Source: Nitrososphaerales archaeon
GTDB lineage: Archaea; Thermoproteota; Nitrososphaeria; Nitrososphaerales; Gagatemarchaeaceae
Assembly (NCBI GenBank): GCA_032906765.1
Contig: JAJTZB010000001.1
Location: 248,001-312,000 of the forward strand
Direction: 5' to 3'
DNA length: 64,000 bases
Shown: positions 10,350 to 31,194 of the stretch, piece after piece
Layout of the letters: the number at the start of each line of letters is the position of its first letter
Numbering within the stretch: the stretch's first letter is position 1
The notes under the pieces: model-generated
What the model was told of the DNA's origin: nothing
The model's database searches: none
Seen by the model: only the letters and a program-made list of their open reading frames with translations
Program-made: the position numbers and the translations under genes

Positions 10350-10364
10350 GCGCCGGGAAAGGGA
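10350..10364. repeat. attL: 15-bp copy of the tRNA-Ser 3' end
   Basis: GCGCCGGGAAAGGGA, identical to 31180-31194. It lies between the start of the M61 peptidase and the integrase, where no tRNA body is present, so it is a 3'-end fragment left by integration. Confidence 0.85.
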
Positions 10365-10425
10365 GCTCGACCTTCGCGTTAAATTCCCTCCCGAAGGGTA
10401 TAGAGCCAGATAGGGGCCTGAAACC

Positions 10426-11562
10426 GTGAGCGAGCTAGAGCAGGAGGGGTACCAGGAGCAGAACCTGCGGCTGATAGACCAGTTCATCGAGGACCTGCCA
10501 CCCATGTCCGTCAAGAGGCAGGAGAAGCACAGGATCATACTCCGCAACGTATCGAAGTGGTGGCTGAAGAAGCCCTTCGACGACGTCACCAGGCAGGACC
10601 TCAAGCAGATCATCGTCGGAATCGACAGCGCCGTCGTGAAGAACCGGATGACGGGCCAGACCAAGCCGTTCGAGGACTGGACGAAGGTCGACTACAAGCG
10701 CTGCACGAAGCGCTTCATGCGGTGGCACCGAGACGCCGACTTCGTGAAGGATTTTCCGGTCGGCTCGGCAGAGGAGACGGTGGGGCCGGACGACATACTC
10801 ACCGACGAGGAGCTCTGGAAGATCTTCGGGGTCTGCCAGAACCTCCGCGACCGCGCCATGAGCTACACCATGTACGAGGTTGGGCCCAGGCCGGCGGAGT
10901 TCCTCAAGCTGAGGAAGAACGACGTGATGTTCGACGACTACGGCGCGATAGTGTACCTGCGCAAGACCAAGACCGTGTCGCGGCCGGTCCGCGTGATCAA
11001 CGCCGCTCCGCTGTTGGCGAACTGGATAGAGAACCACCCCGTGCCCGAGAGGGACGCGCCTCTCTGGATCGACCAGTCGCGCAACACCAGGAACACGGCG
11101 ATTAAGTGGACGGGCCTGATCAAGATAGTCAAGCGGTGGCGGGAGAGTGCGAAGATAGAGAAGACGGTGACGCCGTACGTGTTCAGGCACACGCGGGCGA
11201 CGCACCTGGCGAAGATAATGACGGAGGCGCAGCTCTGCCTGGTCTTCGGCTGGAAGATAGGCTCGAAGATGCCGCGGATGTACATTCACTTGAGCGGCAA
11301 GGACGTCGACGAGACGCTGCTGAAGGCCTACGGGCTGAGGAAGGAGCAGCAGGAAGAGGTCAAGGCACCCAAGAGATGCGTCAGGTGCGGGACGCTCTGC
11401 GAGGCAGACGCGGAGACGTGCCGCAGGTGCGGGATGGCGCTGACGCTGACGGCGGCCATGAAGAAGGACGAGGAGATGGCCAGGCTGAACGAGAAGCTCG
11501 AGAGGCTCGAAAGAGCGGTCGCCGAGAGGTTCGAGAAGGACCAGGCTGCAGCTGGTAGCTGA
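10426..11562 (+). CDS. Tyrosine recombinase (integrase) with C-terminal zinc ribbon
   Basis: The 378-aa protein has an N-terminal core-binding domain (about 10-115) and a catalytic domain. Visible catalytic candidates are R155 (in EVGPRPAEFLKL), a lysine near 180-182, R254 in YVFRHTRATH (the first His of the usual HxxR is Tyr here), W276 in place of the second His and Y286 (RMYIHLSG) as nucleophile. A zinc ribbon (CVRCG then CRRCG, 318-336) and a charged coiled-coil tail follow. The start is GTG at 10426. The gene is intact and not split by the attachment site. It presumably excises and integrates the element at tRNA-Ser. Confidence 0.9.
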   Translation: MSELEQEGYQEQNLRLIDQFIEDLPPMSVKRQEKHRIILRNVSKWWLKKPFDDVTRQDLKQIIVGIDSAVVKNRMTGQTKPFEDWTKVDYKRCTKRFMRWHRDADFVKDFPVGSAEETVGPDDILTDEELWKIFGVCQNLRDRAMSYTMYEVGPRPAEFLKLRKNDVMFDDYGAIVYLRKTKTVSRPVRVINAAPLLANWIENHPVPERDAPLWIDQSRNTRNTAIKWTGLIKIVKRWRESAKIEKTVTPYVFRHTRATHLAKIMTEAQLCLVFGWKIGSKMPRMYIHLSGKDVDETLLKAYGLRKEQQEEVKAPKRCVRCGTLCEADAETCRRCGMALTLTAAMKKDEEMARLNEKLERLERAVAERFEKDQAAAGS

Positions 11563-13128
11563 CTACGGGGAGTAGAATGCCTCTAGGAGGTCGATGTCCA
11601 CGAAGAGCTGGCCTATCCCCGCCCTCTTCGTCACATATCCCCCCTCGTACAGCTTGTCCAACCCGAACTGCAGGATTTTCTTGTCCCAGCCGTACCTGTC
11701 CTCGAAGATCCTGCTCAGCGCCCTGAAACCCATCTCGCCGTGGCAGTGGAGGTAGGCAAGGGGGACCCAGCGCGCGGGCTCCCCGAGCCAGCAGTCCCCG
11801 CGCTCCTTCAGGGCCTGGTCGAACTCCTTCTTGTAGAGGAGCTCGGTCTCCCCTGTGGCTCCGCCGTACTTCGCCTCCATGTCCACCTTCATGAAGTCGA
11901 GCGCCTCGGCGTACCCGCACAGGGGGTCAGGAAGCTTCGGGAACTCGACCCTGAATGGCGGCTCCCGCGGCCTACCGCCCACGGGCCTCTTCCTGACCAC
12001 GGCCGAATAGTCCTCCAGGCCGGGGATGAGCTCGGCTACATCGTCCGCCCTCTCTGGGTACAGGATCTTGGCGAGCCGCCTCGCGTCGTCGGGGCTCGAC
12101 CTGAATGCCAGGACCGGGCCCACGTTGGCGTCCACCGAGGCCATCAGGTCGTCGGGGATGTCGGAGAGGGTCTGGGCCACCATCCAGAGGTAGAGCTCGT
12201 ACTTCCTCGACTGGGAGAGGATGGTTCGAAGGATGCGGAGCTGCGCGATGTCCCTGAACTCGTCGGCCGCGAATATCACGGGTGTGCGCGCCGAGGGCTC
12301 CTTCCCCGACTTCTCGAGCCTGGTGGCCCGCTTCACGCTCGCGAAGTAGAGCTTCATCACCACGGCCGAAGCGAAGATCCTCCTAAACTCGCTCGGCAGG
12401 TTCGGGGGCATCCTGAAGATGGTGAGGGTCCCGGGCTCCATGAGCTTCTCCAAGTCGATGGTGGACTTGCGGTTGCAGAATGTGCGGAACGTCACCGAGC
12501 TCTGCGGCAGGACGAAGTTGGATATCCTGTTGAGGACTGGCATGTAGGCATCCTGCGGGAGCTTGGAGATGGCCTCCATCGTCCCCCGGATTATGTCCTT
12601 CTGGACCTCCTTCCGGTTGAGAAGGTCCTCGACCTCCCTGGCGCTCCTCTTTGTGAAGTCCAGGGTGATGTTGTAGATCTCCCAGAGGGTGGGGTCGGGG
12701 GTGAACCTGTAGTCGTAGTACTGGACCCCCTTGAAGACCCACATGAGGCGGGGCGCGTTGGTGGAGTCTGTGTTGAAGACGTCGGAGAGGAGGATGGAGA
12801 ACTCGTCCACCTGGTTGTGGGTGAACTCGGGCTTCTCTGATTCTTCGAGCCCATCGGGGAGGGAGAGTAGGTTGAAGCCGAAGGTCACGTACTGCGGGTC
12901 GAACAGGTTGACCCTTGTCCACTCGGACTTCGGGATGGAGCGCAGCAGGTCGATGGACGCGTCCCCCGCCGGGTCGAAGAAGAAGAGAGCCGGCCGCGGC
13001 TTCCCCTCCTCTTTCTTCTTGAAGAGAAGGTTGAGCATGTGCAGGACTGCGTTGGTCTTGCCGCTACCAGTCCCGCCCACCACGAGCGTGTGGAAGAGCA
13101 TGTCGCCGCTGTCGAGGGTCTGGCCCAA
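11563..13128 (-). CDS. VirB4/VirD4/HerA-type conjugation ATPase, motor domain
   Basis: This frame holds the motor domain: Walker A GGTGSGKTN (residues 18-26), Walker B VIFAADEF (284-291), a sensor Q in MVAQTLSDIPDDL (319) and a C-terminal part with a winged-helix-like FRALSRIFEDRYGW. Such ATPases pump DNA in conjugation or drive type IV secretion. The only available start is TTG directly after an in-frame stop, and the usual N-terminal domain is encoded in the neighbouring frame at 13148-14146. The two look like one gene separated by a frame change and stop codons. It converges with the integrase gene, end to end. Confidence 0.8.
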   Translation of the reverse strand: MGQTLDSGDMLFHTLVVGGTGSGKTNAVLHMLNLLFKKKEEGKPRPALFFFDPAGDASIDLLRSIPKSEWTRVNLFDPQYVTFGFNLLSLPDGLEESEKPEFTHNQVDEFSILLSDVFNTDSTNAPRLMWVFKGVQYYDYRFTPDPTLWEIYNITLDFTKRSAREVEDLLNRKEVQKDIIRGTMEAISKLPQDAYMPVLNRISNFVLPQSSVTFRTFCNRKSTIDLEKLMEPGTLTIFRMPPNLPSEFRRIFASAVVMKLYFASVKRATRLEKSGKEPSARTPVIFAADEFRDIAQLRILRTILSQSRKYELYLWMVAQTLSDIPDDLMASVDANVGPVLAFRSSPDDARRLAKILYPERADDVAELIPGLEDYSAVVRKRPVGGRPREPPFRVEFPKLPDPLCGYAEALDFMKVDMEAKYGGATGETELLYKKEFDQALKERGDCWLGEPARWVPLAYLHCHGEMGFRALSRIFEDRYGWDKKILQFGLDKLYEGGYVTKRAGIGQLFVDIDLLEAFYSP

Positions 13129-13147
13129 TTCGTTTCAGCGATTGGAG

Positions 13148-14146
13148 TCAGGCTCGGCCCTTAACGGGGGCAGCTTCCAGGCCGACGATTCCAGGTAGTT
13201 CCGTGAGGAAGGCCGGGTTCGGCTCGATGCTCTGCGCCCCCAGCTCGCCGTACACTGACTTCAGGACGGCCAGGTACTCGTTCAGGCCAGGTACCGAGCC
13301 TGATGAGATCAAGACGTCCGTCTTGCCAGACGTGAAGACAACTTCCAGGCTCCTCACCGCCGGCGAAGCGAGGAGGGACAGCCTCTCCGCGTCCTTCTCC
13401 TTCAGCGGTTCCTTGATCAGCGGGACTCTGGTCAGCCTCAGGACCTTCGAAACCCCCCTGCCTTCCGGCTCTCCGGCCCCTTCGACGTCTCCACCCGGGA
13501 CCACCGGCGAGTACTGGCTGAAGGCGACCGACTTCATAGAGCTGGCCTCCTTGACGATTGGCAGATGGACGAAGTAGGGAAGTTCGTCCTTAGTGATCAG
13601 GAACGAAGGGGGCTCGAGACGGGAGCGGGTGTAGCTCATGAAGTATGGCGAGACATCCTCGACCATCCTCCTCTCGACGAGATCCACTAGCATCCACGGG
13701 TTCCTGTAGACGAAGGTCCCGAGCCTGTCGAGCTCGTCGTGGCAGTCCTTGAAGGGCAGGGACGAAATATCCCCTGGGTCTCCTACCCACATCCCCTGTA
13801 TTGCAAGCAGGACTTGCGGCGAGTTTACTATGGCATCGATTCTCTTGATTCTCTCTGCGGACTTCTTGAACCAGTCCCGGTGGAGCTCGGGCCTGTCGTA
13901 CTCGCTGTCGTCGATGATGCTCGTCTTGGGTGTCTTGATGTGCACGGCCGCGAGGTTGATGTCGTTCTTCAGGGCCACCAGCGAAGGGGAATAGTTGGCG
14001 CGCCGGAAGAGGAGCTGGACCCAGGCGAACCTCGGCGAGGCTGCTTCGATTGAGTGAATCAGCTCCCCGACGAACCTCTGCGGCTCCGGATAGCGGGGCG
14101 ACGACATCACGTTCGCGTTGATCAATGACACGTTGAAGAATCGCAC
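13148..14146 (-). CDS. N-terminal domain of the conjugation-type ATPase (separate frame)
   Basis: The 332 residues resemble the N-terminal TraC-like domain of archaeal and actinobacterial VirB4/TraG-like proteins: VRFFNVSLINANVMSSPRYPE at the start, PRFAWVQLLFRRANYS, and FLITKDELPYFVHLPIVKEAS, which matches the usual T-x-E-L-x-x-x-x-H-L-P segment. It stops at TGA 13150-13148, 20 nt before the ATPase frame opens. Upstream, GTG 14180 starts MSDNQRYKLEP in a third frame, which reads naturally into VRFFNVS after a frame slip near 14148. The intact ancestral gene probably ran 14180-11563. A split two-subunit arrangement is the alternative. Confidence 0.6.
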   Translation of the reverse strand: MRFFNVSLINANVMSSPRYPEPQRFVGELIHSIEAASPRFAWVQLLFRRANYSPSLVALKNDINLAAVHIKTPKTSIIDDSEYDRPELHRDWFKKSAERIKRIDAIVNSPQVLLAIQGMWVGDPGDISSLPFKDCHDELDRLGTFVYRNPWMLVDLVERRMVEDVSPYFMSYTRSRLEPPSFLITKDELPYFVHLPIVKEASSMKSVAFSQYSPVVPGGDVEGAGEPEGRGVSKVLRLTRVPLIKEPLKEKDAERLSLLASPAVRSLEVVFTSGKTDVLISSGSVPGLNEYLAVLKSVYGELGAQSIEPNPAFLTELPGIVGLEAAPVKGRA

Positions 14147-14169
14147 GCGGCTCGAGTTTGTATCTTTGA

Positions 14170-14613
14170 TTATCGCTCACGCCTCCGGCGTTTCATGAGG
14201 TGCCTGACTCTCGTGCCCAGGCGAGGATAAGCAAGCATGTCTCTGTATGGTCCGGCGGGCAACGGTCCAATCCTGCTGACCAGTTCGAGGAACAATGACA
14301 AAGCGAAGGCCGCTTGCAGGATGACGAGGTAGTACCAGCCCGAAGTGACGTGAGTGAACGGAAGACTCGCGGCGACTCCGGCAAAAGCGAGAACCGCCAG
14401 GAGGGGCCTGCTTCTCCACGGTCGTCTGGCAGGGCGAGGTGCGTCAGGACTGATTAGGCCAAGGTACCTGCAGACGGCCCACCACGCGGCCAGGCCGCTG
14501 CGGTCATCGAATGGCTTCGCAACCCGGCCGAGGTCATGCCTGTAGGCCACAGTGTACATGGCGGCGAGCCACGGAAGAGGGGTGTAGACGAATACCCAAG
14601 AGAGGTAATCCAT
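14170..14613 (-). CDS. Hypothetical membrane protein of the element
   Basis: The 147-aa product has an N-terminal hydrophobic segment (LSWVFVYTPLPWLAAMYTVAY), two further hydrophobic stretches around LLAVLAFAGVAAS and YYLVILQAAFALSLFLEL, and a very basic C-terminus ending KRRRRER. I do not recognise a family. Its end overlaps the GTG at 14180 that probably begins the conjugation ATPase, so it is likely co-transcribed with it and could be a membrane partner of the transfer apparatus. Confidence 0.6.
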   Translation of the reverse strand: MDYLSWVFVYTPLPWLAAMYTVAYRHDLGRVAKPFDDRSGLAAWWAVCRYLGLISPDAPRPARRPWRSRPLLAVLAFAGVAASLPFTHVTSGWYYLVILQAAFALSLFLELVSRIGPLPAGPYRDMLAYPRLGTRVRHLMKRRRRER

Positions 14614-14660: not shown

Positions 14661-16970
14661 TCAGCATGCGGGCCAGGTCTTGCGCGTCAGGTCCCGGACG
14701 CCGACAGTCTTCCGCATGTTTGCGTCCACGAGCCCATGTCCGTGCTCGTGCCTCCCGACCAGCAACTCCACGTCGCAGCGGCTGTCGAACTCCCTCAGCA
14801 CTGTTGCGCAGGCTTCGGCCAAGAGCCTGACATAGCGCCTCGGGTCGTAGTCCTTCGCCTCCCAAAAGTCGAATGGCACGGCCCTCTTGGAGCCGCCCGA
14901 CCCGTAGTCCCTTATCACGTATCTTATCCCCTCTCCCGCGTGGAGTTCGACCCCCTCACCGACGAGCTGCTTCGCGACTGACGCCTGGAGGGTCCTGTTG
15001 ACGTACTCCTCAGGTTCCTTGGAGAGGTTCATGGCGAAGGCCATCTCGTCGGCCGAAGCCTCCCGGCTCTCAATCATGCTCGCGTACTTCAGGAAGACCT
15101 CGACACATTCGGGGAGCATCTCCCTTGCCTCTTTGATTGTGTCCGCTTTTGCGAGTCTCGTGAGGATCTCCATCTGGCACCGCTTGAAGAGGAGGGGCGT
15201 GTCGCGGCGCCTCGCCTCTATCCCTCGCACCTTCAACGCCCCGCTCCTGTAGGCGCCGAAGTATCTGTTCAGGACGGCCAGCCCTGGGTCCACCTTCGAA
15301 GGGAGGAAGGTGACCCACTTGTAGATGCCCTCGAAGGACAGCGGGAAACCAATCTCCTCTTCTATCTCTCGCTTTAGCTCCAAGTAGTCAGTCTCGTCTG
15401 CGCCGTCCCGTTTCAGCCAGAGGGAGTCGACTATCCCGTGGATGACCTCGTACCCCCTCCTTTCGGCGATTCGCGCCGTGTCGATTAGGGTCTTCCTGTC
15501 CCAGGCGCAGACTGCTATGTGGGCGTCTATCCTGCCGAACTTCGCGTTGGAGTGGCCGAGGTAGCCGAATGAAACGCAACCAACCCATTTGAGGACGGCT
15601 TGTCGCTCATCGAAGATCTTCCGCTCTGTCCCCGTCGCGCTGCCCTTCAATTCCTTGTATCGAAGCCGTTTGCCGACCACGATTTCCATCGACTTCGCGA
15701 TTATGCCTGTCCTCTCCTCGCAGACGTTCCAGTTCAGCTCCGGCACCCTGTTCTTCGAGTCTGGGCAGCAGGAGCACTTCACAGTCTCCGCAGAGATGTT
15801 CTTCCTGAGCATGATGTTCGGGTAAAGGGCCGAATAATCAAATTCGGCAATGCCCTCGTGCATTCCCATCTTCGGTTCGAATATGAAGCCGCCCCTGTCT
15901 GCCACCAGGAGTTCTGCTCTTGTCTTGAAATGCTCAGCCAGTGTGGGCTTCCAGGGCACCAGCAGGCCCATCTTGAAGGCGTTGTAGCACTGGAGGCTCG
16001 AGAGCGCCTTGCCTATGGTCGCCCTGCTCGACGTCTGGAGGGGCATTCTGCAGAGTCTGGAAAGCTCGAAGAGCCCTTCGAACCCGGCCTCGGAGAAGGC
16101 GAAGGACGTGTTGACGTCGATGTGCAGCCTCCCGTACAGCTTCATGGCCGACGGCTTGTAGTGGATTCTGCCGTAGCTGAAGTAGGACGTTCCTTTCCTT
16201 GCGGGAAGGGTCAGCAGCGTCCCGTCTCTGTCGAGTGCCAGCCTGCCCGCTACTCCGCTGGCCTCGGCCCTCTTGGTCAGGTAGGGAAAGAGGAAGGTGT
16301 CACCGTCGGTCGTGAGCACGAAGTCTGGGTCGGCTTCCTTCACTGCCTTCACTATATCGAGTATCATGTCGGCCTCGCTCCGGCCTTCGATCACAACCTT
16401 GCCGTTGTCGCTCTCCAGAGTCACGGCCTTTAGCGGGTCTGTGAAGCGCGCCAGCATTCCCTGTTTCTCTATCTGGACGTCCACCTTCACTTTCCTGAGG
16501 TTTGTTATGCAGTAGTCGTAAGCCCAGACGTCGTCCTCCAGCATCCACTCTAGCCTGTTTCCACGCTGCTCGACCTCGCAGTAGGCCAAGGGGAACAGGT
16601 CGCGCTCGTAGAGGTAGCTCTGGCTCGGCGGTACGTCCACGTTGTAAGCCCGGAAGGCGCCGAAGGGTCCCAGCCTCTCTATCCTCCCGGCCACCTGCTG
16701 GAGCCGCTTCGCGTCCCTTACCTTGGCCTCCACCACTTCGCTGCTCTCTCGGTCTGTGACCCTCTCGCGCCTTCGCACTACTCTCGTCCAGGCGAGCTCT
16801 TCCCCGACTGTCTTGAGCGGAGTCTCGAGGTCCGTCCTGTTGTCTGCCGCTATGTAGATGGAGGGCGACCAGCTGTCGACGAGCCTGACCGCGTCGCCGT
16901 TCTCCTCCTTGAGCCAGACCACCATTTCTCCGGGTCTGCCGGGGTAGAGGTCAAAGATTCGCCCGCGCAT
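14661..16970 (-). CDS. Family B DNA polymerase (PolB2-like), element-encoded
   Basis: With ATG 16970 the product is 769 aa (frame opens at 17072). Polymerase motif A is EFDYSALYPNIM (376-387, D378), motif B is LKWVGCVSFGYLG (460-472) and motif C reads HGIVDSL (511-517): the second aspartate (D515) is kept and the first is Ile. GIEARRRDTP (583-592) and a Cys-rich CSCC...C insert (399-417) are typical. The exonuclease region is degenerate: Exo I reads TLESDN instead of DIE, and Exo II reads TTDGDTFLFPYL. It probably replicates or repairs the element without proofreading; a polymerase of the PolB2-like group is my best match. Confidence 0.88.
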   Translation of the reverse strand: MRGRIFDLYPGRPGEMVVWLKEENGDAVRLVDSWSPSIYIAADNRTDLETPLKTVGEELAWTRVVRRRERVTDRESSEVVEAKVRDAKRLQQVAGRIERLGPFGAFRAYNVDVPPSQSYLYERDLFPLAYCEVEQRGNRLEWMLEDDVWAYDYCITNLRKVKVDVQIEKQGMLARFTDPLKAVTLESDNGKVVIEGRSEADMILDIVKAVKEADPDFVLTTDGDTFLFPYLTKRAEASGVAGRLALDRDGTLLTLPARKGTSYFSYGRIHYKPSAMKLYGRLHIDVNTSFAFSEAGFEGLFELSRLCRMPLQTSSRATIGKALSSLQCYNAFKMGLLVPWKPTLAEHFKTRAELLVADRGGFIFEPKMGMHEGIAEFDYSALYPNIMLRKNISAETVKCSCCPDSKNRVPELNWNVCEERTGIIAKSMEIVVGKRLRYKELKGSATGTERKIFDERQAVLKWVGCVSFGYLGHSNAKFGRIDAHIAVCAWDRKTLIDTARIAERRGYEVIHGIVDSLWLKRDGADETDYLELKREIEEEIGFPLSFEGIYKWVTFLPSKVDPGLAVLNRYFGAYRSGALKVRGIEARRRDTPLLFKRCQMEILTRLAKADTIKEAREMLPECVEVFLKYASMIESREASADEMAFAMNLSKEPEEYVNRTLQASVAKQLVGEGVELHAGEGIRYVIRDYGSGGSKRAVPFDFWEAKDYDPRRYVRLLAEACATVLREFDSRCDVELLVGRHEHGHGLVDANMRKTVGVRDLTRKTWPAC

Positions 16971-17165
16971 CTTCCCGTCCCTTCGGTCTCTGTATCTCAC
17001 GAGAGCGAACGCAATGCATACGAAACGAGGGTGATTGATTGGAAAGATATAATCACAGACGACGTTTTGCAAAGTCCCGGAGAGAGGGGCAGACGAAAGT
17101 GAGAGGCGGAGCCAGCAGGCGCATTCTGGCTCTTCACATTATTCTGAAGAAGTGACGGGAATCGC

Positions 17166-17495
17166 CTACTGCGGCGAGTTATTCGCGTCTTCGAAGGCTT
17201 GGCGCGCCCTCCTCACCTCCGCGCAGAAGTTCATGCTGTCCCCCCATCGGAATACAATGGCGGTGTGTTCGCCGTAGAAGCGCTTCAGTATCCTGCCTTC
17301 GACTAGGGTCGCCCCTACAGGATTGAAGAGCACGGAGAGAAAATCGTCGAAGTCGGCAGGCCTGCTTGCGCAGTCGCGCAACGAGACTCCGTTCATGCTG
17401 AGGCGGTAGACCGTCGACGCGAATCCGCTCAGCCCGAGCACCTCCTTCAGGGTGGATTCGCAGGCTGAAGCCATCGCCGCCTCGAACTCGGCCAA
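17166..17495 (-). CDS. Small hypothetical protein, NitrOD5-like pattern
   Basis: A 109-aa soluble protein whose middle, FDDFLSVLFNPVGATLVEGRILKRFYG, resembles the small helical domains common in Thaumarchaeota (NitrOD5-like); this is a pattern impression, not a confirmed match. The frame opens with TTG 17495, and ATG 17474 is an alternative start. It lies upstream of the PolB gene on the same strand with a gap of about 195 nt. The function is unknown. Confidence 0.5.
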   Translation of the reverse strand: MAEFEAAMASACESTLKEVLGLSGFASTVYRLSMNGVSLRDCASRPADFDDFLSVLFNPVGATLVEGRILKRFYGEHTAIVFRWGDSMNFCAEVRRARQAFEDANNSPQ

Positions 17496-17677: not shown

Positions 17678-18034
17678 TCAGGTCTCTTGCTCTCCCGATG
17701 GCCTGAACAGCTCGAAGGCTCTCTTCACACCGTCCCTGAAGAGTATCGGAACGTAGAGTATGGACACCAAGAGCAGAACCATCTCGATTGCAGCTTCGCC
17801 CTGCAAGTTGTCGTAGATGATCACCGAGTAGCCGTGGGTGTCCGCCAGTATCAGGGTCCACGCGAGGACAACCACAGAGGCCATCACCATTGAGACCGAG
17901 ACGATGTAGAACGCCCCTAAAGCCAGCTTCGCCAAGGCCCTACGCGGTTCAGCTCGGGAGATGTGGTGCGTCTCCTGCTCCGCTCCCGAACTCGAAGTCT
18001 TCCCGCAGACTCTGCAACGCGGTCCATCCGACAA
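17678..18034 (-). CDS. Zinc-finger-like two-TM membrane protein
   Basis: The 118-aa protein starts (TTG) with a CRVCG pair and a downstream THH that may complete a metal site. Two hydrophobic segments follow (LALGAFYIVSVSMVMASVVV and AIEMVLLLVSILYVPILFR) and a charged tail. It begins 13 nt after the stop of the large adhesin-like gene and is probably the last gene of the pilin operon. No known family is recognised. The stretch 17496-17677 shows no gene. Confidence 0.55.
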   Translation of the reverse strand: MSDGPRCRVCGKTSSSGAEQETHHISRAEPRRALAKLALGAFYIVSVSMVMASVVVLAWTLILADTHGYSVIIYDNLQGEAAIEMVLLLVSILYVPILFRDGVKRAFELFRPSGEQET

Positions 18035-22571: not shown

Positions 22572-23105
22572 ATGTCGTTCTTCGGTCTGGGACCGAACGA
22601 ATTGATGCTTTCGATACACGGGTTATTCTTCATCCTGATAGTCGGCTTCGCAAGTTACATGTTCGGCGCGATCTACTTCAAACGCATCCTGAGCGATGTC
22701 TACATGACCCGACTGAAGTACAGCGCGCTCATCACTTTCCTCTTGGTGCTGGGCCTCATGGTGTCCGGGATCCTCCCCGATGTGAACTTCGGGTCAGGAA
22801 CGCTCCTGAGCGCCAGCTATGGCAACGACTACGGGAACTTCACCCAGAGCATAAGCGATGCTTCTGTCGGGGCATTCACAGGCCCCCTCCTCTTCGACAT
22901 GATGGAGCACATCTCCTTCATTGGATTGGCCTTGACTGGCGTGACGACATATCTCATATGGGACTTCGGTGAGCTCGTGATCACCGACAGGCGCGTAAAG
23001 TGGAGTATCTTGAGCCTCATCTTGGTGACTGTGGCATGGCTACTGGTCCTCGGAGTGGTTGGGACCATAATGACGAAGACTCTGACGTTTCCCCCAGGAG
23101 CATGA
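22572..23105 (+). CDS. Multi-pass membrane protein, unknown
   Basis: The 177-aa product has four to five hydrophobic segments: LMLSIHGLFFILIVGFASYMF, YSALITFLLVLGLMVSGIL, ISFIGLALTGVTTYLIW and ILSLILVTVAWLLVLGVVGT. Two histidines sit within helices (SIHGLF and MMEHISF), a pattern seen in haem b-binding membrane proteins, but there is no recognised cytochrome motif. GAGGAG precedes the ATG. It is followed after 6 nt by another membrane protein gene, and the pair probably forms one complex. Confidence 0.6.
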   Translation: MSFFGLGPNELMLSIHGLFFILIVGFASYMFGAIYFKRILSDVYMTRLKYSALITFLLVLGLMVSGILPDVNFGSGTLLSASYGNDYGNFTQSISDASVGAFTGPLLFDMMEHISFIGLALTGVTTYLIWDFGELVITDRRVKWSILSLILVTVAWLLVLGVVGTIMTKTLTFPPGA

Positions 23106-23111
23106 GTTAGA

Positions 23112-23465
23112 TTGCAAGAGTCCAAGCCGTCGTTCGCGGAGACCGTCAGCAAGGGGGGTGCCCCACCCAAAGCCGCGGCCGGGTACGCTGCGGGATTGTT
23201 CTACTTGTGGGGTGAAGCGGTCCTCAGGTATCTATGGACCAATACATCACTGGGGAGTTGGTACCTCTACACTCAGAGGACTGGAGACGTCGCTGTCATC
23301 TGGCTTTTCAGTGTCGTAATCTCGCTGGTGGGATTCGTCTCGGTGTATGTGCTCTTTAGGAGGAAGGAGCGAGTGGGTTCCATCACTCTTTGGACCGCGC
23401 TCGTCGTCGTTTCGGCTATCATAGCCCCCCTGATCGGAGAAATCGGAACGCCTTTCGGCATCTAG
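23112..23465 (+). CDS. Small membrane protein, partner of 22572
   Basis: A 117-aa protein from TTG 23112 with three hydrophobic stretches (AAGYAAGLFYLWGEAVLRYLW, VAVIWLFSVVISLVGFVSVYVLF, LWTALVVVSAIIAPLIG). No family is recognised. It lies 6 nt downstream of the first membrane protein gene of the nested insertion and is presumably co-translated with it. The stretch 23466-23734 that follows contains no convincing gene. Confidence 0.5.
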   Translation: MQESKPSFAETVSKGGAPPKAAAGYAAGLFYLWGEAVLRYLWTNTSLGSWYLYTQRTGDVAVIWLFSVVISLVGFVSVYVLFRRKERVGSITLWTALVVVSAIIAPLIGEIGTPFGI

Positions 23466-23734
23466 CCGTAGCCTACGCACTGCGGCACGCGTATTCTTCC
23501 CCCTGAAACGAATTATGATGGGATTCCCAACAACCACTCCTGGCTTCTAGGGCCCATTGATAGGACGTTCGACACGACAGGAGTCTTTCAGACCACATGT
23601 GTAGTCGGAAGTCCCGACGACTGCACTTCGTGTATAGTTCGAACCTTGCCGACCGCTCCGCATGTGGTGTTCAAAGCGCCGACTGCGACCTTGGCAAGAG
23701 CTTTAATCCAGAAAGGGGGGTCAATGGTTGGTCG

Positions 23735-25024
23735 ATGAAACCAAGCGATTTGGCTCCCTCGCCATCCCAAGGCTGGCTCAACCGAAACGTCATCGGAATG
23801 AGCCTTACCAGCTTGTTCTCAGACACCAGCCACGAGATGGCGACTTCGATTCTCCCGTTATTCATCGTCTTTGCCGTCGGTGGTAATCCCGCCATTGTAG
23901 GACTGGTGGAAGGAGCGTCCGACGGAGCCTCGAGTCTGGTCAAGTCCTATTCTGGATACTACTCTGACAAGTCGGGCAAACGGACACCTATCATGTATCT
24001 AGGTTACCTGCTCACAGGGATCCTTATCCCAGCAATCGGCTTCGCTGTTTCGTGGCTGCAGGTGCTGGTCCTCCGGGTGGGAGCTTGGACGGGGAGAGGC
24101 GCGAGAGGCCCACCGAGAGACGCCCTGATGGTCGACTCGGTTCCAGCAGATTCTGTGGGGAAGGCTTTCGGCTTCGAAAGAACGTTTGACACCGTGGGTG
24201 CAGTGATAGGTCCCGCAATAGCTCTCTTGTTGATTCCCTATCTTCCGTATTCCCAGATATTCTTCGTCTCCTTCGTTCCAGGGGTAGTCTGCATCGCCGT
24301 CGTCCTGGGCATGGTGAGAGACAGGCCGCCCGGTGTGAAGAGGACGGGACGGGACAGGGGAGGGGAATCGATTTCATTCCTCTCCTCAGTCAGAATCCTC
24401 CCGAGGGAGTTCAGGCTCCTCCTTGTCAGCGTCGGTCTCTTCGGAATCGCGAATTTCTCTAATGTAATCTTCACGCTAAGGGCGGAGCAGGTGCTTCAGC
24501 CTTCACTCGGCATATCTGCAGCATCTCAATTGGCTGTCCTTCTGTATCTGCTCTTGAACGTGATTTACGCACTCGGTTCGTTCCCAGCTGGGTACCTTGC
24601 CGACCGGATTTCAAAGCGAAACCTTCTCGCTGTAGGGTACTCCGTCTTTGCTTTTGCCTGCATCGCTTCGATATTTGAGAGTCCGGGCTATCCGATTTTG
24701 ATTACAATCTTCGTCCTAGCTGGCCTTCAGACGGCAATTGTCGACACGGTGGAGAAGGCGTTCGCGGCTGAGATGCTCGGCCAGTCCCAGAGGGGGACTG
24801 GATACGGTGTTCTTCAGACGGTAAACGGGATAGGCGATTTCGTCTCAAGCGTGATGATTGGCGTCCTTTGGACAGTGCTCACGCCCGGCATCGGTTTCGC
24901 AACTGTGGCATCCCTCGCCCTCATTGCAACCCTCGTGTTGCTTGTGGTGTTGCGAGATACCAAGCCTGCAATAAATAGGGCCGGAGGTCAGGCTTCGCTT
25001 TACGCACTAAGTGTAGAGTCCTAG
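23735..25024 (+). CDS. MFS transporter
   Basis: The 429-aa product has about twelve hydrophobic segments and MFS features: LTSLFSDTSHEMATSILPLF in helix 1, GYYSDKSGKRTPIMYLGYLL matching the loop 2-3 signature (D-x-x-G-K/R-R), WTGRGARGPPRDALMVDSVP in the middle loop, and GYLADRISKRNLLAVGY repeating the signature in the second half. The start is ATG 23735; the frame opens earlier at 23597 without homology. It is a drug/metabolite efflux-type permease of unknown substrate and the cargo of the nested insertion, ending 58 nt before the right repeat. Confidence 0.85.
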   Translation: MKPSDLAPSPSQGWLNRNVIGMSLTSLFSDTSHEMATSILPLFIVFAVGGNPAIVGLVEGASDGASSLVKSYSGYYSDKSGKRTPIMYLGYLLTGILIPAIGFAVSWLQVLVLRVGAWTGRGARGPPRDALMVDSVPADSVGKAFGFERTFDTVGAVIGPAIALLLIPYLPYSQIFFVSFVPGVVCIAVVLGMVRDRPPGVKRTGRDRGGESISFLSSVRILPREFRLLLVSVGLFGIANFSNVIFTLRAEQVLQPSLGISAASQLAVLLYLLLNVIYALGSFPAGYLADRISKRNLLAVGYSVFAFACIASIFESPGYPILITIFVLAGLQTAIVDTVEKAFAAEMLGQSQRGTGYGVLQTVNGIGDFVSSVMIGVLWTVLTPGIGFATVASLALIATLVLLVVLRDTKPAINRAGGQASLYALSVES

Positions 25025-25166: not shown

Positions 25167-27203
25167 TCATGCGTGGATGAAAGAGAGCAGATCGACCTGC
25201 GCCAAGATGAACGTCGCGATGATCGCCAGCGCCACGTTGACGGTCACCCTGAGCGTGTTCTTCACAGTGAAGTCGACTATCTTGGCCGATATCACCCCGA
25301 GCGCAGCCGAGGCGACCACTATGAGGATGTTCGACAGTTCGGTTAGGGCGGGAGGCACGTAACCTATCTTGAGCAGGTTCGCCGAGACAGGGAGGTTGGA
25401 GAGGCTGATGGATAGGTGCGAGCTGAATGAGAAGACAATCGAGCGCGTGAAGTCTATGCCGAACGCGAGCAGAAGGGGAGAGGCGTAAGCGAGGAAGATG
25501 TACGGCTTCATCTCCACGGACGCCTTGCCCCTCGCCTCCGCAACCTTCGAGACGTACGTTGACAGCTGGTTCAGTGTGTCGACGCTTCCCCCGCCGTAGA
25601 GGGACATCTCGCCCAGCACCATGAAGGTCATCTTCGCCAGCCTGCTTCCGGTCTCTATCCTCGCTTCATCGAGCGGACTCCCCTTCTGCAGGTGCGCACC
25701 AACCCTGTCCAGTATGCTGTTGAAGCTGCCGTTGTACCTGTTCTCCTTCGCGACCGCGATGACGGCCTTAGGTATGTCGTACTCCTGCCTCTTGTACTCC
25801 ATCAGGTCCCCCAGGAAGCGGGGGACAGCCTCGTCCGCCTCTCTTGCCTCTGTCCTCTGAGCGAGGACGGAGAGGCCGTAGAAGGTGCTGAAGATGAACA
25901 ACCCCGTGGCCAAGCCGATCCAGACCTGGTTCAGTAGCAGGGAAGGCAGAGCGCCCAGCAATGAAAGGGCGAGCGCAATCCGGGGGTTGCCGTGGACCGG
26001 GTCCTGCCCAGACGGCTGCATCCTGCTTACTGTCACGACCATCACCGTGGTGAATATCGGCACGGCGATGAAGGTGAAGCCGGAAAGGTAGGTCAGGGAT
26101 GCGGACGAGGTGAAGAGCGAAGTGATCAGTATCAGTATCGGCAGGATCACGAGAAGGGTGAGCATCATGCTGCCGAGACCGCCCGCCATCTCGCCGTACC
26201 TGGCCCAGTCCGACTCGAGCCGCCGGAGGAGGTCGCCGCTCTCGCCTGAGAAGTACTCGCCAAGGGCGCCACCCGATCTCATCTTAGAAGTGTACCCCGT
26301 GATGAAGGAGGCGAAGCGCCTGGAGGGGTGGATCGTGGAGAGTCTCTCGAGCGCTTCCAGCGAGTTCATCCCGAGGACTGTCACATATTTCCTCAATATC
26401 GAGCCCTCCTTTGCGATTTGAGGGAATACGCTCTCGCTAGCCACCTTCTGGAAGACATCGTAGAGTGGGGTGCCTGCGCCAGTCAGGACTTCGGCAAGCA
26501 CAGAGAAGAACGGCAGCTCCTTCTCGACTCCTGAACCTCTCGCCGATGCCGCGTCCCTGAGCTTGAGGTTGTAGAAGAAGTAGAAGGCAAGGGGAACGAA
26601 TAGGATGACGAGGGCGGGAGCCCCGACCAGAATAGTGGCGACGATTGCGGCTAGCACCGCGAAAATCAGCGCGAGGAGGGAGTACGCGACAGACTTCGCG
26701 GCTATTGCGCTCGCGTTCCCTGAAACCCCCGACGAGAGCAGGAGCTTCCTGAAGCTCTCGGTCCTCGCGGACGCGACGCGCCTGAGGCGCGCGTGCCTCT
26801 GCACGAACGCGGTCGACCAGACTTCTGTGAGGGGTACGATTTTGGGAACCGCGGCGCTTCCTGTGAGAGGCCAGACCGACACAAGGGTGAGCGCTTCAAA
26901 TGCGGCTGACGCTGCGAAGATTATGAGGAAGTACTGTTGGCTGTACCTCAGGTAGGCCACCAAGACGGAAGCACAGATGCCGGCTCCGATGATTGCCGCG
27001 GGGACGCGGGCGTCCACGCTTACCCTCTCCTGAGCAAACCTTACGAGCGACGTCCCCCTCAACGCTATGTACGCCACACCCGCCAGGCCGGAGAGCCCAA
27101 CACTCAGCAGGAATACGGACTTCAGGGAGGAGAGCTCTGACGCGCCGGAGCTGCCTATCAAAGAGTATGCGTACAGCGAGACCAGCGCGAACAAGGCGGA
27201 CAT
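25167..27203 (-). CDS. TadC/ArlJ-type pilus assembly platform protein (double T2SSF)
   Basis: The 678-aa membrane protein carries two cytoplasmic T2SSF domains. The first is around ELPFFSVLAEVLTGAGTPLYDVFQKVA and SKMRSGGALGEYFSGESGDLL, the second around AVPRFLGDLMEYKRQEYDIPKAVIAVA and LQKGSPLDEARIETGS. Each is followed by paired transmembrane helices, and further helices occupy the N-terminus. This is the layout of archaeal ArlJ/TadC-like platforms that dock a pilus ATPase. Neither an ArlI/TadA-type ATPase nor a prepilin peptidase is found in the element, so host proteins may supply them. The gap 27204-27375 shows no supported gene. Confidence 0.8.
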   Translation of the reverse strand: MSALFALVSLYAYSLIGSSGASELSSLKSVFLLSVGLSGLAGVAYIALRGTSLVRFAQERVSVDARVPAAIIGAGICASVLVAYLRYSQQYFLIIFAASAAFEALTLVSVWPLTGSAAVPKIVPLTEVWSTAFVQRHARLRRVASARTESFRKLLLSSGVSGNASAIAAKSVAYSLLALIFAVLAAIVATILVGAPALVILFVPLAFYFFYNLKLRDAASARGSGVEKELPFFSVLAEVLTGAGTPLYDVFQKVASESVFPQIAKEGSILRKYVTVLGMNSLEALERLSTIHPSRRFASFITGYTSKMRSGGALGEYFSGESGDLLRRLESDWARYGEMAGGLGSMMLTLLVILPILILITSLFTSSASLTYLSGFTFIAVPIFTTVMVVTVSRMQPSGQDPVHGNPRIALALSLLGALPSLLLNQVWIGLATGLFIFSTFYGLSVLAQRTEAREADEAVPRFLGDLMEYKRQEYDIPKAVIAVAKENRYNGSFNSILDRVGAHLQKGSPLDEARIETGSRLAKMTFMVLGEMSLYGGGSVDTLNQLSTYVSKVAEARGKASVEMKPYIFLAYASPLLLAFGIDFTRSIVFSFSSHLSISLSNLPVSANLLKIGYVPPALTELSNILIVVASAALGVISAKIVDFTVKNTLRVTVNVALAIIATFILAQVDLLSFIHA

Positions 27204-27375
27204 GGCATGGAGGGCATGCCTGCCGGAGAGCCTTGAGGACCTTGGTCACGAAGGCAGGCCTGAAGGGGAGTTTCCTGAGGTCGTGGGCGTCGAAGGCCAC
27301 CGACTCGATCAGCACCTGGATGCCTATCAGCATCGCGAGTTCCTCCCTGCCTCTACTCTTGGGCAATTCCCAGGA

Positions 27376-28551
27376 TCATCTTCGTTTTCCCGCGCCGGCG
27401 CGCAAGAGGAGAGGCCCGACGATTTTGTCCCCTGCTATCTTCTGCCACATCTCCTCTTTGTGGTCGTAGCGAAGGTCCACAGCTTCCACCGTCTCTCGGG
27501 GCTCCCTGAATTTCATCGATGGTGATGGCTCTGCCGCGTACCTTCTGCCCTCCAGATGCTTCACGAACAGAAAGAACCGCCCCTTGCAGGCAGAGCATGT
27601 GCAATCCAGCCTGCTGACGCTGTCTGTGACCTCCGTCCTGCTCTCGCCTTCTGGGTCTGCCGGCAGGTGAGTGGCCTCGATCTTGCCCTTCATCTGCACC
27701 ATGTGAAGGGTTCGGCACCTGGGACATGACGCAGTGATTACGCTCTTCTCGTGAATCTCGAGCCCTTTGATGGCCTTTCCTTTCGCTTTCGCAGGCTTCT
27801 GTTTCTTCGCCTGACCGCCCTGTGAGGTAGCTGTCCCACCTGCCTCGGGTTTGGGTTGCTCGTACTGCGAGAATACTCTCCTGAACCACTCCAACGAGTA
27901 CGCCGAGTTCCTGTCCTCCCATGCCCTGTCCATGTCCTCCCCCTTGTATCCGTAGCCAGCCGCTGTCGCTGCTGTCAGGTAAAAATCCGCCTCGCCCTCG
28001 ATCTTGCAGATGTACTCCAGGTGCGGAAGCCTGAATCTGAACCGGGTCGCGACCTCGATTTCGAAGAGCTTTCGTATCTTCTCCAGCGTCACCTTGTCGG
28101 CGACGTCGACCAGCCGCTTCAGCCCCTTTTCGAGTCCCTCGGGCTTTATCGCGTCCCTGATCTTGGTCAAACCGTAAACCTCCTCGAGGACCGAGAGTCC
28201 CTGCCTCTCGCCCCTCTCCTCGTCGTTCTCCCTCTTCGCCTTGACGAACATCTGGAGCTCGTCCATGCCGGTGTCGATGTAGGCGGTGTAGGAGCCGAAC
28301 CTCTCGTCTTTCGTCGTCTCGTAGAGCAGCTTCAGCGCATGGTAGCGCCTCACCCCGACGTAGACGTAGTAGCCTTCGCCGTCGGACCTCAGTACCACCC
28401 TGCCCGGGTTGAGCTGGCCGTTGGGGGTGTTCTCATCGGCCGCCGACCTTATCGAGTCCGCGAGGCCCGCGACGTCGTAGCTGAACCTGAAGGCGAGCTT
28501 CGGGTGCGGCTGGATCAGCTTGAGCGGGATGGTTGTCAGTTGGGCCGGCAT
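27376..28551 (-). CDS. ParB/Srx-fold protein with C-terminal zinc ribbon
   Basis: ATG 28551 gives 391 aa. The N-terminus (IPLKLIQPHPKLAFRFSYDVAGLADSIR, then GQLNPGRVV and YVGVRRYHALKLLYE) matches the ParB N-terminal domain, where the GxRRYxA motif binds nucleotide. The middle is helical and probably DNA-binding. The C-terminal third has a zinc ribbon with CPRC and CTCSACKGRFFLFV. No ParA partner is visible. It may segregate or regulate the element. It starts 10 nt after the stop of the TFB-like gene. The longer frame from 28761 is antisense-like overlap and is rejected. Confidence 0.7.
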   Translation of the reverse strand: MPAQLTTIPLKLIQPHPKLAFRFSYDVAGLADSIRSAADENTPNGQLNPGRVVLRSDGEGYYVYVGVRRYHALKLLYETTKDERFGSYTAYIDTGMDELQMFVKAKRENDEERGERQGLSVLEEVYGLTKIRDAIKPEGLEKGLKRLVDVADKVTLEKIRKLFEIEVATRFRFRLPHLEYICKIEGEADFYLTAATAAGYGYKGEDMDRAWEDRNSAYSLEWFRRVFSQYEQPKPEAGGTATSQGGQAKKQKPAKAKGKAIKGLEIHEKSVITASCPRCRTLHMVQMKGKIEATHLPADPEGESRTEVTDSVSRLDCTCSACKGRFFLFVKHLEGRRYAAEPSPSMKFREPRETVEAVDLRYDHKEEMWQKIAGDKIVGPLLLRAGAGKRR

Positions 28552-28561
28552 GGAGGTCCAC

Positions 28562-29626
28562 TCATGATTGCCACGCATCCAGCTCTGACTGCACGACCAG
28601 CGACCGCATCTCGGTTCGCTTGAGATGATACTTCTGTGCGATGGAGCTGCTGATGTGTTCCGGGACTGTGTCCTCGCAAGCCTCGATAAGCGCTTCCTCG
28701 GCCAGCTTCCTGGGAGACCTGCCCAGCCCGTTCCCAACACTCCGCGCGTACAGCTTGGCATATTCGGCGCTCACCTGCTGCAGCAGGCCCGCCTCCCTCA
28801 GGAGCCTCGAGGTGAGGCGCAGCTTGGAGATGGAGTATTTCCTGAACATCGCGCCCATGCTGGCTCCTGCGCACGCTGCTCTTCCCGAGAGCCTGGCCTC
28901 CTCCAAGACCTTGAAGAGCTCGAAGTTTCTCTCGTCAGTCGTTATCTGGAACTCTGACGGTCCCAGGGGCTCGACCCTCTTCTCGTCGAATCCCCTCCTC
29001 GTCAGCACCGCGTTCCGCAGCTCGACGAGCGCGCCGCTATCTGAGGCAAAGAGAGGTGTCCTCAACCTGCAGTAGAGGCCGCAGGCGTAGGACCGGAACG
29101 GCCGTTCCCTGCCATCTACGAGAACCCGAATTCTTCCCTCGGACGACGGATAGACTTCGACAACGAGATCCTTCAGCCGGTCCATTCCTGGGTGGACCTT
29201 CGCGATGGAGGAGCAGACCTCTCCCAGGTTCCTACCCTGACTGATGAACTCCTGAGCGACAGAGGCGATGGCAGCCTTGGTCGGACCCAGCTCGCCCATG
29301 ATCTTGACGGCGGCCTTCTCTGCATTCTGCTTCACCGTGTTCTTCACTTCGGGAGAAGCGTTGAACTTCTCAACGAGGGACTCGATTTCCTTTCTCAACG
29401 GAGACATCCTTTCCTCCTGCTGCATGGAGAGCGAGTACGAGCCGTGGGCGCGGGAGCCGACTGGCCTCCCCAGAACCTTCGAGAGCTCGTTCCTATCCAG
29501 CGGTGCGGCCCCGACTGGACTGCTCCCGTCCCTGAAGACGGATCCACAACTCTGGCAAGCACCGTCCACCAGAGGCGAGCCGCACTGTTCGCACAGTTCG
29601 AGTGGTTCCCCATCCTCGGCTGCCAT
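28562..29626 (-). CDS. Divergent TFB (TFIIB)-like protein
   Basis: From ATG 29626 the 354-aa product begins with a zinc ribbon (CEQCGSPLVDGACQSCG, about residues 11-27) and a linker. A helical part like the start of the first cyclin fold of archaeal TFB follows (SPLRKEIESLVEKFN to AAIASVAQEFISQ), and a region near the end (RSPRKLAEEALIEACEDTV, ISSSIAQKYHLKRTEMRSL) recalls the second cyclin fold. The middle is not like standard TFB, so the assignment as an element-specific initiation factor is tentative. It is divergent from the small RHH gene at 29755, and operonic with the ParB-like gene. Confidence 0.5.
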   Translation of the reverse strand: MAAEDGEPLELCEQCGSPLVDGACQSCGSVFRDGSSPVGAAPLDRNELSKVLGRPVGSRAHGSYSLSMQQEERMSPLRKEIESLVEKFNASPEVKNTVKQNAEKAAVKIMGELGPTKAAIASVAQEFISQGRNLGEVCSSIAKVHPGMDRLKDLVVEVYPSSEGRIRVLVDGRERPFRSYACGLYCRLRTPLFASDSGALVELRNAVLTRRGFDEKRVEPLGPSEFQITTDERNFELFKVLEEARLSGRAACAGASMGAMFRKYSISKLRLTSRLLREAGLLQQVSAEYAKLYARSVGNGLGRSPRKLAEEALIEACEDTVPEHISSSIAQKYHLKRTEMRSLVVQSELDAWQS

Positions 29627-29723
29627 GCCATCAAGGACGATACCGGCTTTTAACGCGAGGCGGGTCGGAAATCGTGTGGTGGTTCTTATAGGCAAACCCT
29701 CCTGATTCATCGTTCTCTAAGCA

Positions 29724-29733
29724 TTTAAGTATA
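29724..29733 (+). promoter_or_regulatory. TATA-like box of the RHH gene
   Basis: TTTAAGTATA lies 22-31 nt before ATG 29755 in the spacer divergent from the TFB-like gene. AGGAG also precedes the ATG by 2 nt, too close for an ordinary Shine-Dalgarno. Confidence 0.45.
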
Positions 29734-29754
29734 ACGTAATCCGACCGTAGGAGT

Positions 29755-30111
29755 ATGCCAGAGAGACGTTTCCGAACCATCACCGTTGCGGCGCAGCTCT
29801 ACCAGCAGGTCCAGGAGAGGGCCAGGAAGGAGAAGAAGCCCCTGGCCGTCTTCGTCAGTGATATCCTCGTCAACATGCTCTACGTCGACGAGAAGTTCGC
29901 GAACTACGTGCCCCTGCTGGATCTGGTCGCGCTGGAAACGGACCAGGTAATCATCAGGGACAACAAGAAGGACAAGATCGCGGACGTCAGGGTGAAGAAG
30001 GCGGACGGAGGCAAGCTCCAGCTCTACTGCACGCTGGACAGCACTGACTACTGTCCCCACACCGCCTTTGCGGCTGCTCTGCCCCAGGTAATCAACGCCA
30101 CAAGGCGCTGA
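29755..30111 (+). CDS. Small ribbon-helix-helix-like DNA-binding protein
   Basis: The 118-aa protein starts with RFRTITVAAQLYQQVQERARKEKKPLAVFVSDIL read in pieces as strand-helix-helix, the CopG/Arc-type layout (residues 5-40). The rest is a small alpha/beta domain with two cysteines (LYCTLDSTDYC). It may autoregulate the divergent TFB-like/ParB-like operon, an inference from position only. The next gene starts 8 nt downstream. Confidence 0.6.
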   Translation: MPERRFRTITVAAQLYQQVQERARKEKKPLAVFVSDILVNMLYVDEKFANYVPLLDLVALETDQVIIRDNKKDKIADVRVKKADGGKLQLYCTLDSTDYCPHTAFAAALPQVINATRR

Positions 30112-30119
30112 GGCGGAGC

Positions 30120-30368
30120 ATGCTCCCGCCCGGCTTCGTCAGGTTCTACAATGAGAAGGGACTCGACAGGCCTTATTGCAATCAGTGCGTGCACTTCGCG
30201 ACAGAGGGCGGAACGAACCGGGGGCTGTGCTGGAAGCAGGGAGCCTACATCTCGCTCTACTCGAGTTGCAGCGACTTCGACAGAAGAGTGAATTCGTCCA
30301 CTCCCATCGTCGGCGAAGGAGAGATCAAGGCGAAGTTCAGGTTTGGGCCGGGGGACCTTCTGAAGTAG
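30120..30368 (+). CDS. Small four-cysteine protein
   Basis: An 82-aa protein with CNQCVHF, GLCW and SSCSDF, four cysteines spaced as in small metal-binding proteins. The same C-x2-C, C, C layout occurs in the host gene at 62450 (CLSCTWF, GKC, DWCNEY), which suggests a shared family. It lies 8 nt after the RHH gene and is co-transcribed with it. Its last 112 nt overlap the opposite-strand gene 30257-30646. The function is unknown. Confidence 0.6.
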   Translation: MLPPGFVRFYNEKGLDRPYCNQCVHFATEGGTNRGLCWKQGAYISLYSSCSDFDRRVNSSTPIVGEGEIKAKFRFGPGDLLK

Positions 30369-30646
30369 TCCGCGCTTGGTCCTTTCCAGCGAAAGATCTT
30401 GTCTGTCACTCCGACGGCGAAAGTGTAGCTGAGCATCATTGCGCTGAAGAAGAGCTCCGAGGCCAAGCCTGGGTCGAACTCCGCCACCCGCTTGAAGAGG
30501 CTGGTCGCCTTGACGTACTCGGTCCTGAACTCGGGCGAGAGGAGGTCCTGCTTCATCACGTTCGAGACCAACCCGTCCACCCTCCTATCGAAGGCAATTC
30601 GGCTCATCTCCCGGCTTTCTCTGGAGGCGCGCTTTCTCGCCGTCAT
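30257..30646 (-). CDS. Hypothetical protein, helical
   Basis: The 129-aa frame starts at ATG 30646 with a basic segment, then MSRIAFDRRVDGLVSNVMKQDLLSPEFRTEYV and a helical stretch (ASELFFSAMMLSYTFAVGV). Its C-terminal third overlaps the four-cysteine gene on the other strand, so either the two genes truly overlap convergently or the C-terminus is read-through. It starts 3 nt after the stop of the next upstream gene. No family is recognised. Confidence 0.45.
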   Translation of the reverse strand: MTARKRASRESREMSRIAFDRRVDGLVSNVMKQDLLSPEFRTEYVKATSLFKRVAEFDPGLASELFFSAMMLSYTFAVGVTDKIFRWKGPSADYFRRSPGPNLNFALISPSPTMGVDEFTLLSKSLQLE

Positions 30647-30649
30647 GTC

Positions 30650-30883
30650 CTACTTCTCGTTGAGGATGCGTTGTGTGTCCCGGTGAATGTCGATGATCTT
30701 CATCATCGCCTCATGGTGAAACTCGGTTAGCTGTATGGAGTGCCGCATATGGTCGTATTCTTTCGTGCCTGTTTTGAACTTCTTCGCGGCCATCCTGAGG
30801 CCATCAAGGACTACCTTGTAACTCTGGTCCCACATGTTTCTCAGTTCCATCCACTCCTCATCAGGCATCATTCCTTCAGTCAA
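30650..30883 (-). CDS. Small helical hypothetical protein
   Basis: A 77-aa charged helical protein (DEEWMELRNMWDQSYKVVLDGLR, then HHEAMMKIIDIHRDTQRIL). The frame opens with TTG 30883, and ATG 30871 is an equally good start. It is the first gene of a short two-gene unit with 30257-30646 and the last gene of the element before the tRNA. No family is recognised. Confidence 0.5.
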   Translation of the reverse strand: MTEGMMPDEEWMELRNMWDQSYKVVLDGLRMAAKKFKTGTKEYDHMRHSIQLTEFHHEAMMKIIDIHRDTQRILNEK

Positions 30884-31179
30884 GTTCCGACCTCTGAAAG
30901 ACCGGTGGAAGGCCAGGCCGACTCTGCTTGGCTAGCAGGCGCAGTTGAATTGCCTCTGACACTCTACCGCCTTTGGGCATATACGCCCCACCGTCGCTAC
31001 ATAGTCGGAACACGGTTGTCCTGATATACCAAGAATAGAATTGGTGCGGTGAGCGCGTTGAATCCAAGTAGCCAGGAGCAACACTGCTGTTCCTTTCCTG
31101 GAAGATTTGCAGCTATTCCGAGTTCAGGTACTGTACCTGGCTCTGTACCCATCAGAAGGGAACTTGACCCGTAGTATGA
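30884..31179. other. Gene-free right end of the element
   Basis: Nearly 300 nt between the last element gene and the right attachment repeat. No open frame, RNA gene or clear repeat can be supported. It contains a GGTACTGTACC-type palindromic stretch near 31122-31132 (CAGGTACTGTACCTG), a possible recombinase arm or regulator site. Confidence 0.4.
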
Positions 31180-31194
31180 GCGCCGGGAAAGGGA
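31180..31194. repeat. attR: 15-bp repeat within tRNA-Ser 3' end
   Basis: GCGCCGGGAAAGGGA, identical to 10350-10364. Here it forms the discriminator base, the acceptor 3' strand and part of the T stem of the intact tRNA-Ser gene. Confidence 0.85.

Follow-up and report, generated by a model that had tools for sequence, protein, structure and literature searches.

A 20.8-kb element (10350-31194) in the DNA analyzed here is very probably a deletion derivative of a thaumarchaeal integrative-conjugative element (ICE). A tRNA-Ser(UGA) gene would have received it by recombination at the 3′-end; excision is still plausible, and transfer would need a helper. The window, that is, the whole 64,000-nucleotide stretch of DNA that was analyzed, corresponds to G000:C1:248001-312000 and comes from a 1.77-Mb MAG of 13 contigs that is 95.6% complete. 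For the host, an uncultured soil-type archaeon, a Gagatemarchaeaceae-like affiliation (group I.1c) is most likely, since the named relatives in this family include Ca. Gagatemarchaeum stordalenia (G013). The integration target, the repeats, the integrase, the deletion scars, the colinearity with other ICEs and the broken VirB4 are read directly from the sequence. Beyond this, we infer that the element is probably able to excise and reintegrate and that self-transfer has been lost, so that movement between cells would occur only with a helper.

The element is bounded by an exact 15-bp direct repeat, GCGCCGGGAAAGGGA, at 10350-10364 and 31180-31194, and the features at its two ends are as follows:

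10350-10364, plus strand: attL, a displaced copy of the last 15 nt of tRNA-Ser (exact repeat, two genome sites only).
10426-11562, plus strand: tyrosine integrase with a C-terminal zinc ribbon (PF00589, E=4e-14; the zinc ribbon match is weak).
31180-31194, minus strand: attR, the 15-bp 3′-end of the intact tRNA (exact repeat; ARAGORN with introns).
31180-31278, minus strand: tRNA-Ser(UGA) with a 13-nt intron, the integration target (ARAGORN with introns).

Throughout the 1.77-Mb genome, the repeat was found at these two sites only, at 0-1 mismatch. When the 300 bp preceding the integrase were compared with the 3′-end of the tRNA, the longest match measured 15; chance gave at best 11 among 300 shuffles and 10 among 400 real segments of 300 bp from the window. 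ARAGORN at default settings missed the tRNA-Ser and found none; with introns allowed, it placed a tRNA-Ser(TGA) at complement 31180-31278, carrying a 13-nt intron after position 38, and the repeat is therefore exactly the tRNA 3′-end. The left copy lies 61 bp before the start of the integrase, in which the catalytic positions Arg, Lys, RH and Tyr are conserved, and the first His of the HxxR motif is replaced by Tyr both here and in a sister ICE from another genome (G133:C66). In many relatives of this integrase the tRNA adjoins the integrase start, which raised a doubt about the att polarity; it was resolved by the sister ICE, in which the polarity is the same.

Beyond both repeats lie ordinary host genes: an M61 peptidase and a thioesterase flank the element on the left, and its right flank has a GNAT, a 3-hydroxyacyl-CoA dehydrogenase and enoyl-CoA hydratases. 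The tRNA-Ser adjoins GNAT in most family members having both, as at the right edge of the element. In three genomes of two sister genera (G001 and G010 of one, G003 of another, both different from the genus of the window), the genes of the left flank were found on the other side of the tRNA-Ser and the element was absent; these genes are MoaB-like, MoaC-like and their neighbours, with the thioesterase in addition in G001 and the 6922-8037 gene in G003. Because the insert-free loci come from other genera, the insert is placed by gene order and the exact junction is unreadable at base level; a scan of GTDB contigs with M61 yielded no genome of the same genus in which the exact empty site could be read. 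Taken together, the unique exact repeat and the insert-free loci support the original prediction of an element integrated at the tRNA-Ser 3′-end, and its details also held: a perfect 15-bp repeat whose right copy is the 3′-end of tRNA-Ser(UGA), an intact tyrosine integrase just inside the left copy, and host genes on either side.

Some further variation was observed around this locus. The M61 gene between the thioesterase and attL is missing in G001, G003 and G010, but it lies outside the repeats; since it is absent from the same locus in the sister genera, this M61-type peptidase (window 8443-10269), which overlaps the thioesterase gene, is a lineage-specific gain just outside attL. At the same tRNA-Ser locus in G115:C77 (L253 8083-14504), MoaB is separated from the tRNA by ~6.3 kb of other genes, one of which encodes a possible HerA-type ATPase, 531 aa long and with a P-loop motif. 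The tRNA-Ser of G001:C77 (L260 994-1145) has an extra ~50 nt near its 3′-end, perhaps a second intron, within the region that serves as att in the window.

Between the integrase and the tRNA, the element carries the following features:

11563-13128, minus strand: VirD4/TraG-type coupling ATPase, C-terminal ~310 aa missing (PF02534, DUF87, TraG-D_C).
13148-14146, minus strand: conserved ICE protein of 332 aa upstream of VirD4 (same-place homologues in G006, G016, G133, G013 and G012, 37-75% identity).
14170-14613, minus strand: conserved ICE membrane protein of 147 aa (same order in related ICEs).
14661-17000, minus strand: inserted cargo, a solo DNA polymerase, probably of the PolB2 type (catalytic subunit of the translesion mutasome) (PF00136).
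17166-17495, minus strand: conserved small ICE protein of 109 aa (42-48% identical homologues in the G006 and G133 loci).
17678-18034, minus strand: small membrane protein (ORF and coding score).
18048-20765, minus strand: 905-aa pilin-like surface protein with repeats, likely an adhesin (class-III-type pilin N-terminus; weak BasB match).
20808-21335, minus strand: pilin-like protein (pilin-type N-terminus; same-place homologue in G006).
21325-21768, minus strand: pilin-like protein (pilin-type N-terminus; homologues in G006, G016 and G133).
21780-22274, minus strand: pilin-like protein (pilin-type N-terminus; homologue in G006).
22572-25024, plus strand: inserted cargo of two small membrane proteins and an MFS transporter (PF07690, E=1.6e-39).
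25167-27203, minus strand: TadC/UpsF pilus platform protein (PF00482, E=7e-15).
27217-27366, minus strand: deletion scar, the first ~50 codons of the post-ParB gene and then TadC (alignment to the full sister ICE gene).
27376-28551, minus strand: ParB-like protein (weak PHROG ParB matches; 68% identical to the sister ICE ParB-like protein).
28562-29626, minus strand: TFB/TFIIB-like protein encoded upstream of ParB, with a zinc ribbon at its N-terminus (68% identity with its sister ICE counterpart).
29755-30111, plus strand: RHH-type DNA-binding protein (67-70% identical homologues beside TFB in G133 and G006; weak Arc-like match).
30257-30871, minus strand: two small proteins (ORFs with coding score).

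In the single-contig genome G006, homologues of the RHH, TFB-like, ParB-like, TadC, pilin, 17166, 14170, 13148 and VirD4 genes follow one another in the same order, and the gaps are filled by genes for VirB6-like and VirB3-like proteins (named by position and the published gene set, not by Pfam), a VirB4-like ATPase, a T2SSE-type UpsE ATPase, TFIIB and an ArdC-like protein. Such a gene set is typical of thaumarchaeal ICEs according to Krupovic et al. 2019 (PMC6563490); it includes an ICE-specific TFIIB-ParB operon, TadC, pilins and VirD4, and the att sites of these ICEs have a median length of 17 bp. Like these ICEs (NCAV2-E1/E2, NitEve-E6 and others; PMC6563490; Abby et al. 2018, PMC5797428), the window element is inserted at a tRNA 3′-end with a short repeat, and carries a tyrosine integrase, a putative TFIIB-like gene upstream of a putative ParB-like gene, TadC, pilins and VirD4. 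Unlike them, it has no VirB4, VirB6, VirB3 or pilus ATPase, its VirD4 is truncated, it measures 21 kb against a median of 64 kb, and it resides in a Gagatemarchaeaceae-type (group I.1c) genome. The TFB-like gene lies directly upstream of the ParB-like gene, whose own homology to ParB is weak. The earlier call of a TFB-like protein fits this place beside ParB, but its relation to TFIIB is weak by profile, and a single-sequence fold was of low confidence and too poor for use.

The combination of cargo genes had not been recognised as that of a named element; a cargo unlike any named element is not supported, given the published ICE hallmarks (PMC6563490) and the same-order homologues in other genomes. 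Judged by gene content and order, the element is a member of a known ICE kind and not of an unknown one. The mixture of PolB, MFS and pilus genes is unusual, and it had suggested a cryptic element of a new kind, but we give this reading almost no credence, as most of the genes are explained by colinear ICE homologues, and PolB and MFS are insertions into the ICE backbone (at this position, the related ICEs used for comparison have no counterpart of the MFS block). Like the cryptic integrated elements of Thaumarchaeota (PMC6563490), the window element has an integrase and att sites without a full transfer system, but its ICE ancestry is traceable gene by gene. A casposon was rejected as no Cas1 occurs among the called element proteins, and a provirus as no capsid or portal family was found in Pfam or PHROGs, the VirD4 ATPase giving only a weak terminase-type match; the original prediction had likewise set both aside. 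Scans of IMG/VR with the TFB-like and VirD4 queries gave no matches.

The sister ICE (G133:C66:121386-178278) is 56.9 kb long and lies at tRNA-Gly(GCC). It is bounded by a 13-bp repeat, CCCGGCCGGGGCA, which is the tRNA-Gly(GCC) 3′-end and has its second copy ~65 bp before the integrase; as in the window, the integrase and the tRNA are at opposite ends. Its integrase is 56-58% identical to that of the window, its RHH, TFB and ParB proteins are 67-68% identical, and the layout is the same from end to end, with VirB4, VirB6, UpsE, a full VirD4, a second TFB and an ArdC-like protein in addition. It thus differs from the window element in size, in target tRNA and in having the full transfer core, and no PolB2 was found there. 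The closest VirD4 is that of another genus (G016), 88% identical with a dS of 0.48 and a dN/dS of ~0.15, whereas the host GNAT adjacent to the element is 49% identical between the two genera; this difference may be taken as a sign of mobility of the element between genera. The nearest relatives of RHH, TFB and ParB are in G133 (RHH slightly nearer G006) and that of TadC is in G006; as the nearest relative differs from module to module, mosaic exchange is indicated.

Alignment to the 126-aa sister ICE gene showed that the post-ParB gene is cut after ~50 codons (27366-27217) and directly followed by TadC, and the VirB6-VirB3-VirB4-UpsE block, which the G006 ICE has between ParB and TadC, is absent. 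VirD4 matches residues 1-513 of the 823-aa G016 homologue at 88% and then ends directly against the integrase stop codon. The conjugation-type ATPase claimed earlier is thus of the VirD4/TraG type, but it is truncated, which had been missed. A frameshift-split ATPase (11563-13128 plus 13148-14146) was ruled out because the two genes are separate in relatives and the loss is C-terminal. The integrase and the truncated VirD4 (window 10426-13128) have a third-position GC of 0.91, compared with 0.63-0.84 for the genes around them, both of the element and of the host; this would fit a joint arrival of the two.

A whole-genome search for VirB4, UpsE, VirB6 and ArdC detected no full VirB4, no UpsE of the ICE type and no ArdC in the element's own genome, and the pilus ATPases found were distant ones only. 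Fragments of ICE secretion genes were observed at G000:C5:176771-180218, G000:C1:420121-423731 and G000:C6:21097-22578, two of them at contig ends. At the end of C5, which also ends in a 108-aa gene, VirB6 is 83% identical to that of G016 over 236 aa; near the end of C1, VirB3 lies beside a 191-aa N-terminal fragment of VirB4, which is 87% identical to G016; and C6 has another VirB3 with a short VirB4 fragment (~32 aa). Since VirB4 is present only in fragments, ArdC is missing and only distant pilus ATPases occur, the transfer machine is broken as assembled; because the genome is a MAG with the missing T4SS genes partly at contig ends, rearrangement or assembly effects are possible. We infer that C5 joins C1. 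The 108-aa gene and VirB6 of the C5 end, together with VirB3 and the VirB4 N-terminus of the C1 end, equal the block missing from the window, as would be expected of a split but working ICE whose transfer core had moved to the joined contig ends and acted in trans on the window element. This is very unlikely, since the VirB4 copies found are the 191-aa and ~32-aa fragments only, no ICE-type UpsE or ArdC was found, and VirD4 is without its C-terminal third. It is highly improbable that such a split ICE is at work, with the pilus and integrase served by the relocated secretion genes and PolB2 joining the host mutasome and helping the ssDNA or damaged-DNA stages after transfer.

Archaeal pilin-type N-termini were read in four neighbouring element proteins, including the 905-aa surface protein, which has shorter homologues in related ICEs. 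TadC matched the UpsF model NF046075 with E=4e-82, below the model's curated cut-off. TadC is thus UpsF/BasF-like, as in the Ups/Ced and bindosome systems of Sulfolobales; unlike these systems, the window element has no UpsE and is linked to an integrase and ParB. The reading frames of the pilin, surface and TadC genes are intact, and other pilus ATPase genes occur at G000:C1:118665 and C2:127488, which is in line with a domesticated pilus island whose pilins, adhesin-like protein and TadC were kept for host attachment with another host pilus ATPase. However, the intact integrase and the perfect att repeat suggest recent mobility, and no close relative was seen to keep the cluster after loss of the repeat, making a domesticated island unlikely.

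The element PolB has IVD in place of DxD in its polymerase motif, as in the PolB2 mutasome (PMC11791011), and is sister to the host PolB2 at G000:C2 (tree support 100/99); its nearest NCBI model is the general archaeal type-B polymerase. The normal PolB2 copies of the family, including that of the host (G000:C2:218.5-223.6k), are accompanied by a RadA-like protein and a pair of small proteins, of which one starts with MGRT, an arrangement corresponding to the PolB2 mutasome operon, with two PPB2 genes and iRadA (PMC11791011). In contrast, the element carries the polymerase gene alone, with no PPB2 or iRadA beside it. A replication enzyme of the element itself was rejected because of the PolB2 motif and the sister relation to the host copy, and the element PolB2 is best read as captured host cargo. 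The earlier reading had missed both the loss of the transfer core and the probable host origin of a polymerase that is best read as PolB2 and not as a replication polymerase of the element. In G127:C33 (L109 7681-11547), PolB2 carries an in-frame insert of ~540 aa that is intein-like in appearance, and similar gaps were seen in matches from G004, G001, G055, G070 and G082.

For the deletion derivative that we favour, the ancestral element would have carried RHH-TFB-ParB, a VirB6-VirB3-VirB4 secretion core, an Ups/Tad-like pilus (UpsE, UpsF/TadC and pilins), the VirD4 coupling ATPase, a second TFB and an ArdC-like protein. Acting on a circle of this element, the tyrosine integrase would have joined it by recombination to tRNA-Ser(UGA) at the 3′-end; 15 bp supplied by the element would keep the tRNA intact, and the 15 bp that were displaced would mark the far end, next to the integrase. 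In the window copy, the block from VirB6 to UpsE would have been deleted, as would all that lay from the C-terminus of VirD4 up to the integrase, and the PolB2 gene and the MFS transporter would have been gained. With this element, the range of thaumarchaeal conjugative elements comes to include a Gagatemarchaeaceae-type genome, from the group I.1c soil archaea that do not oxidise ammonia; the paper on this family (PMC10640624) does not mention mobile elements. The results also pair a complete sister ICE with a deletion remnant, indicating which modules can be lost, and present a translesion polymerase gene, probably captured from a host, that is carried by an ICE-derived element. Two further integrases of the same family are encoded at G000:C13:26621-27982 and G000:C8:21329-22519, and other integrated elements are therefore likely in this genome.
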